NCBI GenBank assembly: GCA_013791675.1
Contig: VMTI01000154.1
Location: 1-32,571 of the forward strand
DNA: 32,571 nucleotides
From: a bacterium
Lineage (GTDB): Bacteria; CG03
Reading direction: 5' to 3'
Positions 4,122-17,789 of this stretch are shown in pieces (positions within the stretch are counted from its first letter, which is position 1; each line of letters starts with the position of its first letter). The notes under the pieces are model-generated. The model did no database searches and had not been told where the DNA came from. It was given only the letters and a program-made list of their open reading frames with translations. A program made the position numbers and the translations under genes.

Positions 4122-4922
4122 ATGAGTAAAAAACGGCGCTCAGCCTCTCAGCGGAGAACGAAAATAGGCGTTTTTGACTCCGGCATCGGCGGACTGACGG
4201 TTTATAAAGAGCTTAGAAAAAAATATCCTTTCTGCGATTTTATTTATTTCGCGGATACGGCGCATGTGCCTTACGGCGATAAATCGGAGAAAACCATTAT
4301 TTTGTACACCAAAAAAATTGTTTCTTTTCTACTTCGTAAAAAAGCGGATTTGATAGTGTGCGCGTGCAACACGGCTTCGGCTGTGGCGCTTAAGAGCCTT
4401 TCTGCGAATTGCCCCGTTCCCATTCATGGTGTTATTGACGCGGCTGTCCGGGAAGCGGCGGTTTTTTCACGGGTGGCTGTGATAGGGACAAAGCTCACGA
4501 TTAAAAGCGGCGTGTACGAAAAAAAGCTTAAAAAAATGAATGGAAAAATAAAAGTGAAATCCCTTGCCGCGCCTCTTTTTGTTCCTCTTGTTGAAGAGGG
4601 CTGGGCGGGGACGGATGTTTCTGGAAGAGTCGTGAAAATATATCTTGCTCCCGTAAAGCTCATGTGCCCGGAGGCGCTTATACTGGGCTGTACGCATTAT
4701 CCGGTGCTTAGAAAAGAAATATCCGATTATATGGGCGGGGATGTGCGTCTTGTGGATTCAAGTTCGGTAGTAGGCGCGATAGCGCTCAGCGTCTCTATGC
4801 GCCGAGGCAGGGGAAAAAGTTCTTTTTATGTCAGCGACGACCCCGGGCATTTCGTTCGCACGGCAAAAAAAATAATGAAAGTATCCGCGGGGAGAGCGAA
4901 ACTGTGTACAGAATTTTTGTAA
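4122..4922 (+). CDS. murI: Glutamate racemase
   Basis: A PLP-independent racemase making D-glutamate for peptidoglycan. Family motifs are complete: GVFDSGIGGLTV, DTAHVPYGDKS, the first catalytic cysteine in CACNTASA, and the second in LILGCTHYP. The ORF track begins at a TTG (4095) inside the previous gene. The ATG at 4122, 8 bp after the preceding TGA, gives 266 aa, closer to the usual length and to the first conserved strand, so I prefer it, although no clear Shine-Dalgarno supports either. Its 3' end overlaps queD by 19 bp. Confidence 0.94.
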   Translation: MSKKRRSASQRRTKIGVFDSGIGGLTVYKELRKKYPFCDFIYFADTAHVPYGDKSEKTIILYTKKIVSFLLRKKADLIVCACNTASAVALKSLSANCPVPIHGVIDAAVREAAVFSRVAVIGTKLTIKSGVYEKKLKKMNGKIKVKSLAAPLFVPLVEEGWAGTDVSGRVVKIYLAPVKLMCPEALILGCTHYPVLRKEISDYMGGDVRLVDSSSVVGAIALSVSMRRGRGKSSFYVSDDPGHFVRTAKKIMKVSAGRAKLCTEFL

Positions 4923-5269
4923 AGGGAAGTTTTTCTTCCGCGCATTACCTCAGGAATTATAAGGGTAAGTGCGAAAATCTGCATGGCCACAACTGGGGTG
5001 TAACGGCCGAGGTGTCTTCTCTCAAACTCAAAAACGGGATGGTTATGGATTTTGGGGAATTGAAAAAAATGCTGATGGAAGTGATAGAGCCGCTTGACCA
5101 TATTCTTCTCAATGAGCTGCGGGATTTCAAGAAGGATAATCCCACTTCCGAAAACATAGCGCGTTATATTTTCAAAAAGCTGTCCCGGCTTCTTCAGCGC
5201 GGAACACATCTTGAAGAGATAAAAATTTCGGAGACGGAAAATAATATAGCCTCTTATTCCCGTAGATGA
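4904..5269 (+). CDS. queD: 6-carboxy-5,6,7,8-tetrahydropterin synthase
   Basis: Converts dihydroneopterin triphosphate to 6-carboxytetrahydropterin, the first dedicated step toward preQ0 and queuosine. The 121-aa protein shows the zinc histidines (SSAHYL and HGHNW), the catalytic Cys in GKCENLHGHNW, GMVMDFGELKKML, LDHILLNEL, PTSENIARYIF and the late ISETENN segment. Start is GTG at 4904, inside the end of murI, with GGGGAG about 10 bp upstream. The stop overlaps the queC ATG (ATGA). With queC and queE immediately downstream, assignment to QueD rather than a BH4-type PTPS is secure. Confidence 0.93.
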   Translation: MYRIFVKGSFSSAHYLRNYKGKCENLHGHNWGVTAEVSSLKLKNGMVMDFGELKKMLMEVIEPLDHILLNELRDFKKDNPTSENIARYIFKKLSRLLQRGTHLEEIKISETENNIASYSRR

Positions 5270-5970
5270 AAAAGCGCAAAGCGGCCGTGCTTCTTTCCGG
5301 CGGCCTTGATTCGTCCACTATTCTTTTCTGGGCGATAGCTCACGGTTATGAAACGCACTGCCTCATTTTTTCATATAATCAGAGGCATAGCGGAGAAATC
5401 AAAAAGGCCGTAAAAATAGCGGAAGGCGCCCGCAGGCCGTACACGATAATTGATATAAAACTGCCGTGGGGAGGGTCAAGCCTTCTTGGGCAGGGAGGAA
5501 GTATTCCCCGCGGGAAATTACAGGGAAATAAAATACCCTCAACTTATGTCCCCGGTAGAAACACTATATTTATTTCGTACGCCCTGTCTTTTTGCGAGGC
5601 CATGAAAATGAATTTTATTTTTATAGGCGCCAACGCCGTGGATTTTTCCGGTTATCCCGACTGCCGCCCGAGTTACTACAGGGAGTTTGGCAAACTTTTG
5701 AAACAGGCGTCGCTGGGGAAAGTCCGCATCAAAACTCCGCTTCTGAAAAAAAGCAAAAAAGAAATTGTGCTGCTCGCCCGCCTGCTCAAGGTGCCTCTTG
5801 AACACACATGGTCTTGCTACGAGGGCGCCCGCCGGCCCTGCGGGGTGTGTGATTCCTGCCTTCTCAGGGAGAAAGGTTTCCGAGAGGCTGGAATAGAAGA
5901 TCCCGCTCTCAGGGAAACATTAAAAAGTAACCGTACGCCGTCGGCGTACCAAAAAAGAAAGGGGAAATAA
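5266..5970 (+). CDS. queC: 7-cyano-7-deazaguanine synthase
   Basis: An ATP-dependent amide-to-nitrile ligase that converts 7-carboxy-7-deazaguanine to preQ0. The PP-loop is LLSGGLDSST near the N-terminus, and STYVPGRNTIF and GANAVDFSGYPDCR are family hallmarks. The four-cysteine zinc site is near the C-terminus (TWSCYEGARRPCGVCDSC). Length 234 aa is normal. It is coupled to queD by ATGA and lies 10 bp before queE. Confidence 0.95.
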   Translation: MKKRKAAVLLSGGLDSSTILFWAIAHGYETHCLIFSYNQRHSGEIKKAVKIAEGARRPYTIIDIKLPWGGSSLLGQGGSIPRGKLQGNKIPSTYVPGRNTIFISYALSFCEAMKMNFIFIGANAVDFSGYPDCRPSYYREFGKLLKQASLGKVRIKTPLLKKSKKEIVLLARLLKVPLEHTWSCYEGARRPCGVCDSCLLREKGFREAGIEDPALRETLKSNRTPSAYQKRKGK

Positions 5971-5980
5971 ATAAAGCGGC

Positions 5981-6646
5981 ATGCCCACTTCTATTAATAA
6001 AAAAACCTGCGCATTAAAAGGCAAAATCTCGGAAATATTTTTTTCAATTCAGGGCGAAGGTATCTACTGCGGAATTCCGTGCTGGTTTGTGAGATTTTCC
6101 GGCTGTGATAAAAATTGCCCGTACTGCGACACGCTTTACGCCAAAACAGGCGGCTCTTTTATGACGAGCGAAAATGTGCTCAGGCGCATTAAGGGCAACG
6201 CCCCGGTTGTTATAACAGGCGGCGAGCCCTCGCTTCAGGGCGAATTCCTTTCGGCTCTTCTTACGAAACTTAAAGGCAGAAAGGTATTCTTAGAGACATC
6301 GGGTTCAATGCAGCTTTCGGACGCCGGCGCTTTTGAGCACATTTCTTTTCACGCGGAACTTCCTCTATCATCGGACGACAGGAAATTTATAAGAGACATA
6401 AGCGTTCGGGCGTTTACGCTGAAAATTGTTGTCACCTCCGCCGCAAAATTCAAAGATATTCTGAGCGCGGCGCGTTATCTCGGCAAATTCGTCAATTCGT
6501 CTATTGTGCTTCAGCCGGTGAGCATAGGGAAAAAAATTGACAAGGCGGCTCTCGGCAAGGCCGTTCTTTTTGCCGGACGCCTTCAAAGTGTTTACAAAAA
6601 AGTGCGGATGCTCCCGCAGATTCATAAACTCCTTGATTTAAAATAA
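5981..6646 (+). CDS. queE: 7-carboxy-7-deazaguanine synthase (radical SAM)
   Basis: Rearranges 6-carboxytetrahydropterin to 7-carboxy-7-deazaguanine with S-adenosylmethionine. The cluster motif is CX3CX2C (GCDKNCPYCDT), with the SAM-contacting VVITGGEPSLQ. The N-terminal EIFFSIQGEGIYCGIPCWFVRF and C-terminal MLPQIHKLLDLK are typical of QueE. The 221-aa length fits. The operon queD-C-E gives preQ0; GTP cyclohydrolase, QueF and Tgt are not in the window, so the end product (queuosine in tRNA, or another deazaguanine) cannot be decided here. Confidence 0.95.
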   Translation: MPTSINKKTCALKGKISEIFFSIQGEGIYCGIPCWFVRFSGCDKNCPYCDTLYAKTGGSFMTSENVLRRIKGNAPVVITGGEPSLQGEFLSALLTKLKGRKVFLETSGSMQLSDAGAFEHISFHAELPLSSDDRKFIRDISVRAFTLKIVVTSAAKFKDILSAARYLGKFVNSSIVLQPVSIGKKIDKAALGKAVLFAGRLQSVYKKVRMLPQIHKLLDLK

Positions 6647-8064: not shown

Positions 8065-8979
8065 ATGGATGCTGAAAGTGCGCCGAGGCATAATGTGAAA
8101 GCACCTCGCGGCGTACCGGAGGCCGTTCGGCTGCTTGATGAATACGGCGACTACTGCGCATCCGAGCGGGGGCTGTCTCCCCTTTCTGTAAAAGCCTATA
8201 CAAGGGATATCAGAGAATTTTTTGCGACGCTGGATATTCCCCTTTCGTCCATAAGCGAAAAACATATTACGGCTTTTTTAAGGGAAAAAAGAGCTTCTGT
8301 TTCCGCGCGCACTCTGGCGAGGGAAATCTGCGCTCTAAGAAGTTTCTGGAAATTTCTGGTAGAAGACGGCGTAGCCCGCCGCAATCCCGCTTCAGCTTTG
8401 CGGAGCCCCCGTCTTGAAAGTTATCTGCCGGATGTTCTCACAATTTCGGAGGTGGAGGGAGTAATATCCCGCATACCGCGCGGGAAAAAAACTTCTTTGC
8501 GGAACATCGCCGCGGTGGAAGTGCTTTACGGCGCCGGATTGAGAATAAGCGAGCTGATTGGACTTCGGGTCAAAGATGTGAATCTCCATGTGGGTTTTCT
8601 CAAATGCCTGGGTAAGAGAGGGAAAGAGAGAATTGTGCCGCTCGGCGGGAAAGCCTGTTCGGCGGTGAAAGCATTTCTTATTTTTTCACCGGCGGATGAA
8701 GGAGATTTCCTTTTTAGAAATCCGTCCGGCGGCTCTTTCAGCCGTATGGGTGTGTGGAAGATAATAAAAAAATTGTGCATTGATGCAGGTATTCAAAGGC
8801 GCGTTACACCTCACACATTCAGGCACAGTTTCGCGACGCACCTTTTGCAAAACGGCGCGGATCTGCGCATTATCCAGGAGCTGCTTGGTCACGCTCAAAT
8901 CAGCACAACACAGATTTATACGCACATTTCCACAAAGCGTTTGCGCCAGATACACCGCCGCTTTCATCCCCGGGGGTAA
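8065..8979 (+). CDS. xerD: Tyrosine recombinase, XerC/XerD type
   Basis: A 304-aa site-specific recombinase. It has an N-terminal SAM-like core-binding domain (about 20-105) and a catalytic domain with all active-site residues visible: R160 (YGAGLRISEL), K184 (CLGKRGKER), H250 and R253 (TPHTFRHSF), H276 (LLGHAQIS) and nucleophile Y285 (QIYTH). Length and sequence suit chromosome-dimer resolution at dif better than a phage integrase. No partner Xer gene, dif site or attachment site is visible, so XerC versus XerD versus a single XerH-like enzyme is open. It starts 14 bp after recA. Confidence 0.88.
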   Translation: MDAESAPRHNVKAPRGVPEAVRLLDEYGDYCASERGLSPLSVKAYTRDIREFFATLDIPLSSISEKHITAFLREKRASVSARTLAREICALRSFWKFLVEDGVARRNPASALRSPRLESYLPDVLTISEVEGVISRIPRGKKTSLRNIAAVEVLYGAGLRISELIGLRVKDVNLHVGFLKCLGKRGKERIVPLGGKACSAVKAFLIFSPADEGDFLFRNPSGGSFSRMGVWKIIKKLCIDAGIQRRVTPHTFRHSFATHLLQNGADLRIIQELLGHAQISTTQIYTHISTKRLRQIHRRFHPRG

Positions 8980-16992: not shown

Positions 16993-17021
16993 TTGACAAC
17001 AAAAGACAATAAATATAGAAT
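16993..17021 (+). promoter_or_regulatory. Sigma70-like promoter of the HTH/histone-like unit
   Basis: TTGACA (16993-16998), a 17-bp spacer, then TAGAAT (17016-17021), one base from the consensus -10. The expected transcript start is about 10 bp before GGAAG and the ATG of the HTH gene, giving a short leader. The same TTGACA-17-TAGAAT pair occurs before fur. The rest of the mfd-HTH gap (16918-16992) shows only a short CTGAA/TTCAG palindrome without a T-run. Confidence 0.75.
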
Positions 17022-17038
17022 CTCATTGGAAGTAGCAT

Positions 17039-17347
17039 ATGCAGAAAGAAATAATGAATGTTCCCGAGTTGGCAGAGTATATAGGTGTCAGCGGATCAAA
17101 GATATATAAGCTGATAAGGGATAAAAAAATCCCTGCTTCAAAAATAGGCAGGCAGTATAAGTTTTCAAAACAAGTAATCGATTCGTGGCTGAAAGAAAAT
17201 ATTATTACATCTTTTTTGAATGAGCCTCTTTTTCAGCCTAAAAAAAATGTCGAAAAAGGGGGTGAGAAAAATGGCAAAGAAGAAAGCAGCGAAGAAAAAA
17301 GTTGTGAAAAAGAAAGTAGCGAAGAAAACGGTGAAGAAAGCCGTTAA
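17039..17347 (+). CDS. Excisionase/MerR-like HTH protein with acidic tail
   Basis: A 102-aa protein. Residues 1-58 form a helix-turn-helix of the excisionase/HTH_17 type (MNVPELAEYIGVSGSKIYKLIRDKKIPASKIGRQYKFSKQVIDSWLKEN), which binds DNA in excisionases and AlpA-like regulators. The tail after about residue 70 is Glu/Ser/Lys-rich (KEESSEEKSCEKESSEENGEES). That tail is the other-frame reading of the Lys-rich peptide gene starting at 17271. GGAAG precedes the ATG. No integrase or phage gene adjoins it, so it is more likely a regulator or architectural protein of this small unit than a true excisionase. An eight-A run (17240-17247) could, by +1 slippage, join the HTH to the Lys-rich frame. Confidence 0.8.
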   Translation: MQKEIMNVPELAEYIGVSGSKIYKLIRDKKIPASKIGRQYKFSKQVIDSWLKENIITSFLNEPLFQPKKNVEKGGEKNGKEESSEEKSCEKESSEENGEESR

Positions 17348-17387
17348 GAAGAAAGTCGCGAAGAAAAAAGTCGCGAAGAAAAAGTAA
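17271..17387 (+). CDS. 38-residue Lys-rich histone-H1-like peptide (overlapping frame)
   Basis: Not in the ORF track. ATG 17271 to TAA 17385-17387 encodes MAKKKAAKKKVVKKKVAKK followed by more KKAV/KKVA units: only Lys, Ala, Val and one Thr after Met. AAGGGGGTGA five bases upstream matches the full anti-Shine-Dalgarno consensus except for one base, which argues for real translation although the frame lies inside the end of the HTH gene (+1 relative). H1-like Lys/Ala repeats of this sort bind DNA non-specifically in bacterial nucleoid proteins such as Hc1/AlgP-type tails (family knowledge). Its TAA forms part of the AAGGAGG of the next gene. Alternatively it is the C-terminal part of a frameshifted HTH protein. 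Confidence 0.7.
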   Translation: MAKKKAAKKKVVKKKVAKKTVKKAVKKKVAKKKVAKKK

Positions 17388-17401
17388 GGAGGCTATCTAG
17401 T

Positions 17402-17728
17402 ATGGCTCAGAAAATTGTTAAGCTTGGTTTGAAGAGAGAAAAAAACCATCTTTATTACATCGGCAAAGACGGAAACGTTTGGGCTGCTCCGATGGCACGC
17501 GCGGGAAAAAAAGGCGGTAAAGCCAAAAAAGTCGCGGATGCCGGAGTGAAAAAAGAGAAAGGTTTTCTTTATTTTCTTGACAAAAACGGTGACGTAGCGA
17601 AAGCTGCAATGTCCCGCGGCGGCAAGAAAAAGAAAAAAGCAGCGAAAAAACCTGCAAAGAAAAAAGTCGCGAAGAAAGCGGTGAAAAAAGCCGTTAAGAA
17701 AAAAGTCGCGAAAAAAAAGAAAAAGTAA
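17402..17728 (+). CDS. Duplicated small-domain protein with histone-H1-like tail
   Basis: A 108-aa basic protein. Residues 8-37 (LGLKREKNHLYYIGKDGNVWAAP...) and 47-76 (AGVKKEKGFLYFLDKNGDVAKAA...) are a tandem repeat with 15 of 30 positions identical by eye: a predicted beta-hairpin around K(D/N)G(N/D)V, then A-M-x-R-x-G-K-K. Residues 75-108 are almost wholly Lys, Ala and Val. I remember similar xLYFIDKxGDVxxAxMxRGG proteins in other candidate-phylum and PVC-type genomes but know no function. AAGGAGG at 17386-17392 precedes the ATG. A nucleoid-associated role is inferred from the tail. A strong terminator follows within 15 bp. Confidence 0.82.
   Translation: MAQKIVKLGLKREKNHLYYIGKDGNVWAAPMARAGKKGGKAKKVADAGVKKEKGFLYFLDKNGDVAKAAMSRGGKKKKKAAKKPAKKKVAKKAVKKAVKKKVAKKKKK
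17669..17715 (+). repeat. Direct repeat coding for Lys-rich tails (second copy of 17319-17365)
   Basis: Bases 17319-17365 in the 38-residue peptide gene and 17669-17715 in the 108-aa gene match at 43 of 47 positions by eye, offset by 350 bp, and both read KKAVKKKVAKK-type sequence. Conservation of third positions and of the phase (GTGAAR AAAGCCGTTAAGAARAAAGTCGCGAA) suggests a recent duplication or gene conversion rather than convergence alone. Confidence 0.7.
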
Positions 17729-17742
17729 TAATTTTCTTTTAG

Positions 17743-17789
17743 CCGCGCCTTTCCCGACCTTGTGCCGGGATAGGCGCGGTTTTTTTTTT
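17743..17789 (+). terminator. Rho-independent terminator
   Basis: CCGCGCCT (17743-17750) pairs with AGGCGCGG (17772-17779), with an inner TCCCG/CGGGA stem, followed by a run of nine or ten T (17780-17789). It closes the HTH/histone-like unit. The minus side lacks a matching T-run, so it does not obviously serve the converging nadE gene. Confidence 0.93.

Follow-up and report, generated by a model that had tools for sequence, protein, structure and literature searches.

Judged by its sequence relatives, the 76-aa core of a 108-aa protein encoded in the window (the whole 32,571-nucleotide stretch of DNA analyzed here, contig VMTI01000154.1) is an old, widespread and unnamed protein, and the operon in which it resides is a lineage-specific elaboration. 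About 96% of the Elusimicrobiota genomes sampled contain the core, as a single copy, as do over half of those sampled from three other large and mostly uncultivated phyla, bacterial and archaeal, yet it is absent from the family libraries searched and lacks structural relatives. Should it package DNA or coat RNA, these lineages would have a basic chromatin or ribonucleoprotein component that is missing from the present picture. The HTH-linked operon provides a natural handle on its regulation. We regard the widespread core protein, rather than the three-gene module proposed in the first-pass annotation, as the interesting object.

Organization of the operon

As first described, a near-consensus promoter, three open reading frames and a strong terminator lie within 800 bp:

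16993..17021, + strand: promoter TTGACA-17 bp-TAGAAT, 11 of 12 consensus bases; the block TAGAAAnTnCCnnTTGACAnCAnAAnnCAnTAnATnTAnAAT is conserved across 5 family genomes
17039..17347, + strand: HTH_17/excise-domain DNA-binding protein, 102 aa (PF12728, E 6e-14; TIGR01764, E 7e-14)
17257..17266, + strand: Shine-Dalgarno site of the Lys-peptide, AGGGGGTGAG, conserved in 6/6 family members
17271..17387, + strand: gene of the 38-aa Lys/Ala/Val peptide (ATG at 17271, stop codon 17385-17387)
17386..17392, + strand: Shine-Dalgarno site AAGGAGG of the 108-aa gene, read in the sequence; overlaps the Lys-peptide stop codon
17402..17728, + strand: gene of the 108-aa protein, core plus H1-like tail
17402..17629, + strand: 76-aa core, two three-strand β repeats (residues 3-36 and 42-75; from repeat identity and AlphaFold)
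17630..17728, + strand: H1-like Lys/Ala/Val/Pro tail of the 108-aa protein and stop codon (from sequence)
17741..17789, + strand: intrinsic terminator, 15-bp stem followed by a T-run (-28.4 kcal/mol, z -5.3 for the fold of 17741-17781)

Both the promoter hexamers and the spacer are conserved in five genomes of the window's family; a promoter scan of this kind found 3 sites versus 2.9 expected by chance. The Lys-peptide reading frame overlaps the 3′ end of the HTH gene out of frame, and its stop codon abuts the AGGAGG of the 108-aa gene, an arrangement in which contact between stop codon and Shine-Dalgarno site suggests that translation of the 108-aa gene may be coupled to that of the Lys-peptide. 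Similar AGGAGG-type sites precede other core genes. An Rfam search of the operon region returned no match above gathering scores. Elsewhere in the window, queD, queC and queE-like genes follow one another at 4904-6646 (translations, by inspection).

Repeats, selection and predicted fold of the core

The 108-aa protein had been annotated as carrying two motif copies and an H1-like tail, and this description holds: the two repeats are identical at 15 of 34 positions, a value reached by none of 100,000 shuffles. They follow the consensus K-V-x(3)-G-V-x-[KR]-x(2)-G-[YF]-L-Y-[FY]-[VIL]-D-K-x-G-[DN]-[VI]-x(4)-M-x-R-G (∼35 residues). Omnitrophota and the Woesearchaeota phylum also encode proteins of 37-80 residues with just one repeat, often followed by a Lys-rich tail, and from their existence the repeat is taken to be the evolutionary unit. 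In one Elusimicrobiota locus (L199:500-715), what appears to be an internal deletion has joined the end of repeat 1 straight to the middle of repeat 2. Strong purifying selection acts on the core gene (pairwise dN 0.006-0.10 and dS 0.27-2.0 for divergent pairs with defined dS in the window's family, the dS range leaving out one near-identical pair).

An AlphaFold2 model of the core (57 sequences, pLDDT 91.1) has six strands, three per repeat, predicted at residues 3-6, 16-20, 26-30, 42-45, 55-59 and 65-69. Foldseek searches with this model returned no match at E ≤ 0.001 in the PDB (best E 0.59, TM 0.26) or in BFVD, and a sequence profile search found no relatives in the PDB. When 57 core members were compared with Pfam and NCBIfam, we found scattered weak matches to unrelated families (best E 8e-4 and 2e-4, respectively); the sole Pfam WW match concerned 1/57 members (E 0.0075). 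The repeat motif, initially presented as part of no described system, matches none of the known families searched, with no Pfam, NCBIfam or PDB-sequence relative. Its motif strings are not printed in the literature searched, and no proteome or nucleoid study relevant to the core was found for these phyla.

Like Sso7d and Cren7, the core is small, basic, β-rich and presumably abundant, but Sso7d, the one of the two compared by profile, has neither a profile (hhalign probability 0.1%) nor a fold match to the core, which is made of tandem 35-residue repeats. Cold-shock domain proteins share with it a superficial likeness in their small size and in a K-G-[FY]-x-[FY] strand motif. They contain five strands, however, compared with three per repeat in the core, and the comparison with the CspA profile was negative (hhalign 0.1%). 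Neither the cold-shock fold nor other DNA-binding folds matched the core model.

Distribution and genomic context

Profile searches of sampled genomes with a completeness of at least 80-85% located the core in 144/150 Elusimicrobiota (∼96%; the phylum of an Endomicrobiaceae genome), 67/117 Omnitrophota, 92/119 genomes of the Woesearchaeota-containing phylum and 63/100 Neomarinimicrobiota. Within the window's phylum it is present in 13 of 16 genomes, including all 6 of high quality. Genomes that bear the core nearly always have one copy, which together with the Elusimicrobiota count points to housekeeping behavior. A scan of GTDB genome contigs returned at least 355 relatives, the best 80 of which come from Elusimicrobia/Endomicrobia, Neomarinimicrobiota, Omnitrophota, Woesearchaeota and a few others. 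We found no core in 50,697 phage records or in 72,556 plasmid records. Two IMG/VR contigs (L105 and L106), whose viral origin is putative, encode core relatives, and phrog_9154, a 70-aa PHROG without assigned function, matches one L029 repeat at 9e-6.

The core gene usually has its own promoter and an AGGAGG-type site, and its neighbors differ between lineages, which argues that it is not a pathway gene. Neighbor clustering revealed lineage-level synteny only (for example, folK and a dehydrogenase upstream in Omnitrophota loci), and the position of the operon between mfd and an NAD-synthase-like gene is conserved in the genus. The three genes had originally been interpreted as a self-contained unit, with a profile search and a tabulation of neighbors proposed as a check. 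Performed with the core, this analysis speaks against self-containment and reveals that pairing with the HTH gene is lineage-restricted. Other families of the window's phylum encode a tail-less core of 75-78 residues in a different neighborhood and without the HTH gene, an HTH neighbor is absent from every sampled Omnitrophota, Woesearchaeota and Neomarinimicrobiota locus (0/30), the H1-like tail is optional, and only one family has the 38-aa peptide.

Possible function as an architectural nucleic-acid-binding protein

The cores are strongly basic even without the tail (mean net charge +12.7 and mean pI 10.1 for 57 cores), and the net charges of the 108-aa protein and of the Lys-peptide in the window are +34 and +22, respectively. 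Basic charge independent of the tail, recurrent H1-like tails, single copy, own promoters and a DNA-binding regulator together point to an abundant architectural nucleic-acid binder. We propose with moderate confidence that the core may be a basic, DNA-binding architectural protein, autoregulated through the HTH protein. DNA would be preferred over RNA as the ligand only by analogy with H1-like proteins, and nothing here distinguishes the two.

In such a mechanism the conserved basic loops of the core (segments M-A-R-G-G-K and G-V-K-K) would bind the nucleic acid, and its flexible tail of Lys and Ala would contribute electrostatic contacts of a non-specific kind, in the manner of histone H1-like proteins. 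The free Lys-peptide, as a detached copy of the tail, would add polycation. The HTH protein, whose short leader has a weak Shine-Dalgarno site, would control operon expression by negative autoregulation through binding to the promoter spacer, and the two basic products would be translated from strong Shine-Dalgarno sites; weak versus strong sites would fit a low-level regulator and high-level structural proteins.

Hc1 and Hc2 from Chlamydia and AlgP likewise contain a disordered, basic tail rich in Lys, Ala and Pro, the length of which varies by short repeats, but they are devoid of a conserved β-rich core, whereas in the core family it is the tail that is optional. H1-like family models gave no Pfam match for the 108-aa protein or the Lys-peptide and no NCBIfam match for the 108-aa protein. 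Replacement of HU or of archaeal histones by the core was considered and rejected: HU is present in 14 of 16 genomes of the window's phylum with no anti-correlation to the core, and archaeal histones show no association with it (Fisher p 0.79). These results count against the architectural reading, as do the absence of any homologue with an assigned function, the negative comparison with Sso7d, cold-shock and other DNA-binding folds, and the loss of support for an HTH-tail association once relatedness is considered.

The core could instead be an RNA- or ribosome-associated protein with a role in translation, ribosome stabilization or RNA chaperoning, its tail adding RNA affinity; this is the foremost alternative, although we consider it less likely. 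Charge, size and housekeeping pattern are those of small ribosomal and ribosome-associated proteins, the near-universal, single-copy presence in Elusimicrobiota agrees with such a role, and the aromatic-rich central strand G-Y-L-Y-F would be compatible with RNA stacking. In archaeal L172 and L173, moreover, the repeat unit is located behind a HIT domain, and these HIT domains also match the decapping-enzyme family DcpS_C. However, the core is found outside ribosomal-protein operons in the loci examined, ribosomal proteins rarely have H1-type tails or a DNA-binding regulator of their own, and the cold-shock profile comparison was negative.

Further fusions place the unit behind a nitroreductase (archaeal L169 and L174) and, by inspection, join it to coiled-coil-like proteins and to a zinc-ribbon-like stretch rich in cysteine. 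The HIT and nitroreductase fusions also count against the architectural reading, as they would be more natural for a binding module of general use than for one restricted to the nucleoid. The unit might then be a WW-sized peptide- or polyanion-binding module, whose Lys tail would bind polyphosphate or other polyanions as in AlgP. In line with this, the 35-residue, three-strand unit occurs alone, paired and as a C-terminal appendix of unrelated enzymes, and there is an H1-like precedent in the bacterial protein AlgP, which is reported to organize polyphosphate granules (PMC9239181). We nevertheless judge this explanation improbable: the only WW match is the weak one noted above, most copies are stand-alone and strongly basic without enzyme linkage, and no polyphosphate gene adjoins the core in the loci listed. 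Two archaeal coiled-coil-like proteins (MAHWR..PEIK..) carry two repeat units each, which lie close to the end of L167 but in the interior of L170; the L167 protein, the one tested, has no Pfam match.

Extending the architectural reading beyond the window, we tentatively suggest that the ∼35-residue unit could define an unrecognized class of chromatin- (or RNA-) binding module common to several bacterial phyla and DPANN archaea, used alone or in tandem, with an H1-like tail in several lineages and a dedicated autoregulator in Elusimicrobia-type bacteria.

Lys-rich tails and the free Lys-peptide

Tails with at least 8 Lys/Arg residues follow the core in 31/70 Elusimicrobiota and also in some Omnitrophota and some Woesearchaeota. 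These recurrent tails, rich in Lys, Ala, Pro, Val and Thr, are found on two-repeat and single-repeat forms and in bacteria as well as archaea. Over 94 columns, the DNA of the Lys-peptide gene is 84% identical to that encoding the tail in the 108-aa gene, and the free peptide looks like a copy of the H1-like tail. Its reading frame is as originally annotated, but the 38 residues are not purely Lys/Ala/Val, as there is one Thr besides Met, Lys, Ala and Val.

We detected the free Lys-peptide only in the window's family, where the reading frame is intact in 6/6 relatives, either as 38-45 aa or as three cistrons in tandem (17-22 aa), and where it has a Shine-Dalgarno site of its own and mixed third-codon positions; on this pattern the Lys-peptide is a candidate for a real gene. 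The three tandem cistrons (22, 17 and 17 aa) lie between the HTH and core genes in L004:1260-1500 (the same locus as L016), each with its own Shine-Dalgarno site and the last two in a 75-bp unit with AGGAGG. None of 70 Elusimicrobiota loci contains a free Lys-peptide, one flagged reading frame apparently being an in-frame core tail. It is very improbable that the peptide has no gene of its own and results from frameshifting into the 3′ part of the HTH gene, which would give an HTH protein with a Lys tail: the peptide does overlap the HTH reading frame in another frame, following an A-rich stretch, but its own Shine-Dalgarno site and ATG are conserved in 6/6 relatives, and the three short cistrons in L004, with separate start, stop and AGGAGG, would be needless for a frameshift product.

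The HTH partner

The HTH protein scores above curated cut-offs (52.4 bits versus 27 for PF12728, and 51.9 versus 28.8 for TIGR01764). Of its first description as an excisionase-type HTH protein, the HTH_17/excise domain stands and the excisionase role does not, this being a superfamily name only: the operon contains no recombinase, there is no integrase in it or adjoining it, and the window's only tyrosine recombinase is 8 kb away (8065-8979, XerD-like by inspection). That the three genes are a mobile-element remnant of excisionase and cargo is hardly credible despite the matches to 'excisionase' profiles, as integrase and phage genes are absent from the operon and its immediate surroundings, the core is missing from the phage and plasmid records searched and near-universal in one phylum, and the position next to mfd and the NAD-synthase-like gene is conserved in the genus.

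HTH and core genes do co-occur in relatives, as the proposal of a common unit implied. An HTH protein of the same subfamily (E about 1e-32 or better) is encoded 25-280 bp upstream of the core in 38/70 sampled Elusimicrobiota loci, and the pair is present in 6/7 genomes of the window's family, G006 being without both. From this co-occurrence, the HTH gene is a specific partner of the core in these two groups, Elusimicrobiota and the window's family. We do not argue for horizontal transfer of the HTH-core operon from one group to the other: a quick tree groups both, but in an AU test a single clade for the window's phylum is not rejected (p 0.74). In Elusimicrobiota, the HTH gene is associated with the presence of a tail (Fisher p 3e-6), an association that is unsupported once relatedness is considered by pairing independent lineages.

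The HTH start is ∼11-18 nt from the expected transcript start and its Shine-Dalgarno site is weak. The last ∼22 residues of the protein are acidic (..EESSEEKSCEKESSEENGEESR) and overprinted on the Lys-peptide frame; given this overlap in another frame, the acidic C terminus is, as read from the codons, a by-product of Lys/Ala/Val codons. In Candidatus Endomicrobiellum glyptotermitis (L044:3853-3950), a decayed HTH remnant (METRYRFFKGIVGGWLFNDRIITEKKCESSEP) is located upstream of an intact core gene, so that, judged from this locus, the regulator is dispensable there and the core retained.

BldC-type and HTH_17 regulators (TIGR01764, PF12728) resemble the HTH protein in being short, with a single wHTH domain of the excise/MerR-like class, but no BldC chain matched it by sequence in the PDB, and the HTH protein described here is linked with a single partner gene. 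The DNA targets of BldC are direct repeats (PMC5859096). In L005 (954-1086), and in this locus only, four direct copies of the element GACAAAAGAAAGCAAA precede the HTH gene, the last of which spans the -35 hexamer and the spacer. These copies are a candidate operator, and the conserved spacer together with the fourfold GACAAAAGAAAGCAAA matches what an operator should look like for an HTH protein that binds direct repeats, such as BldC.
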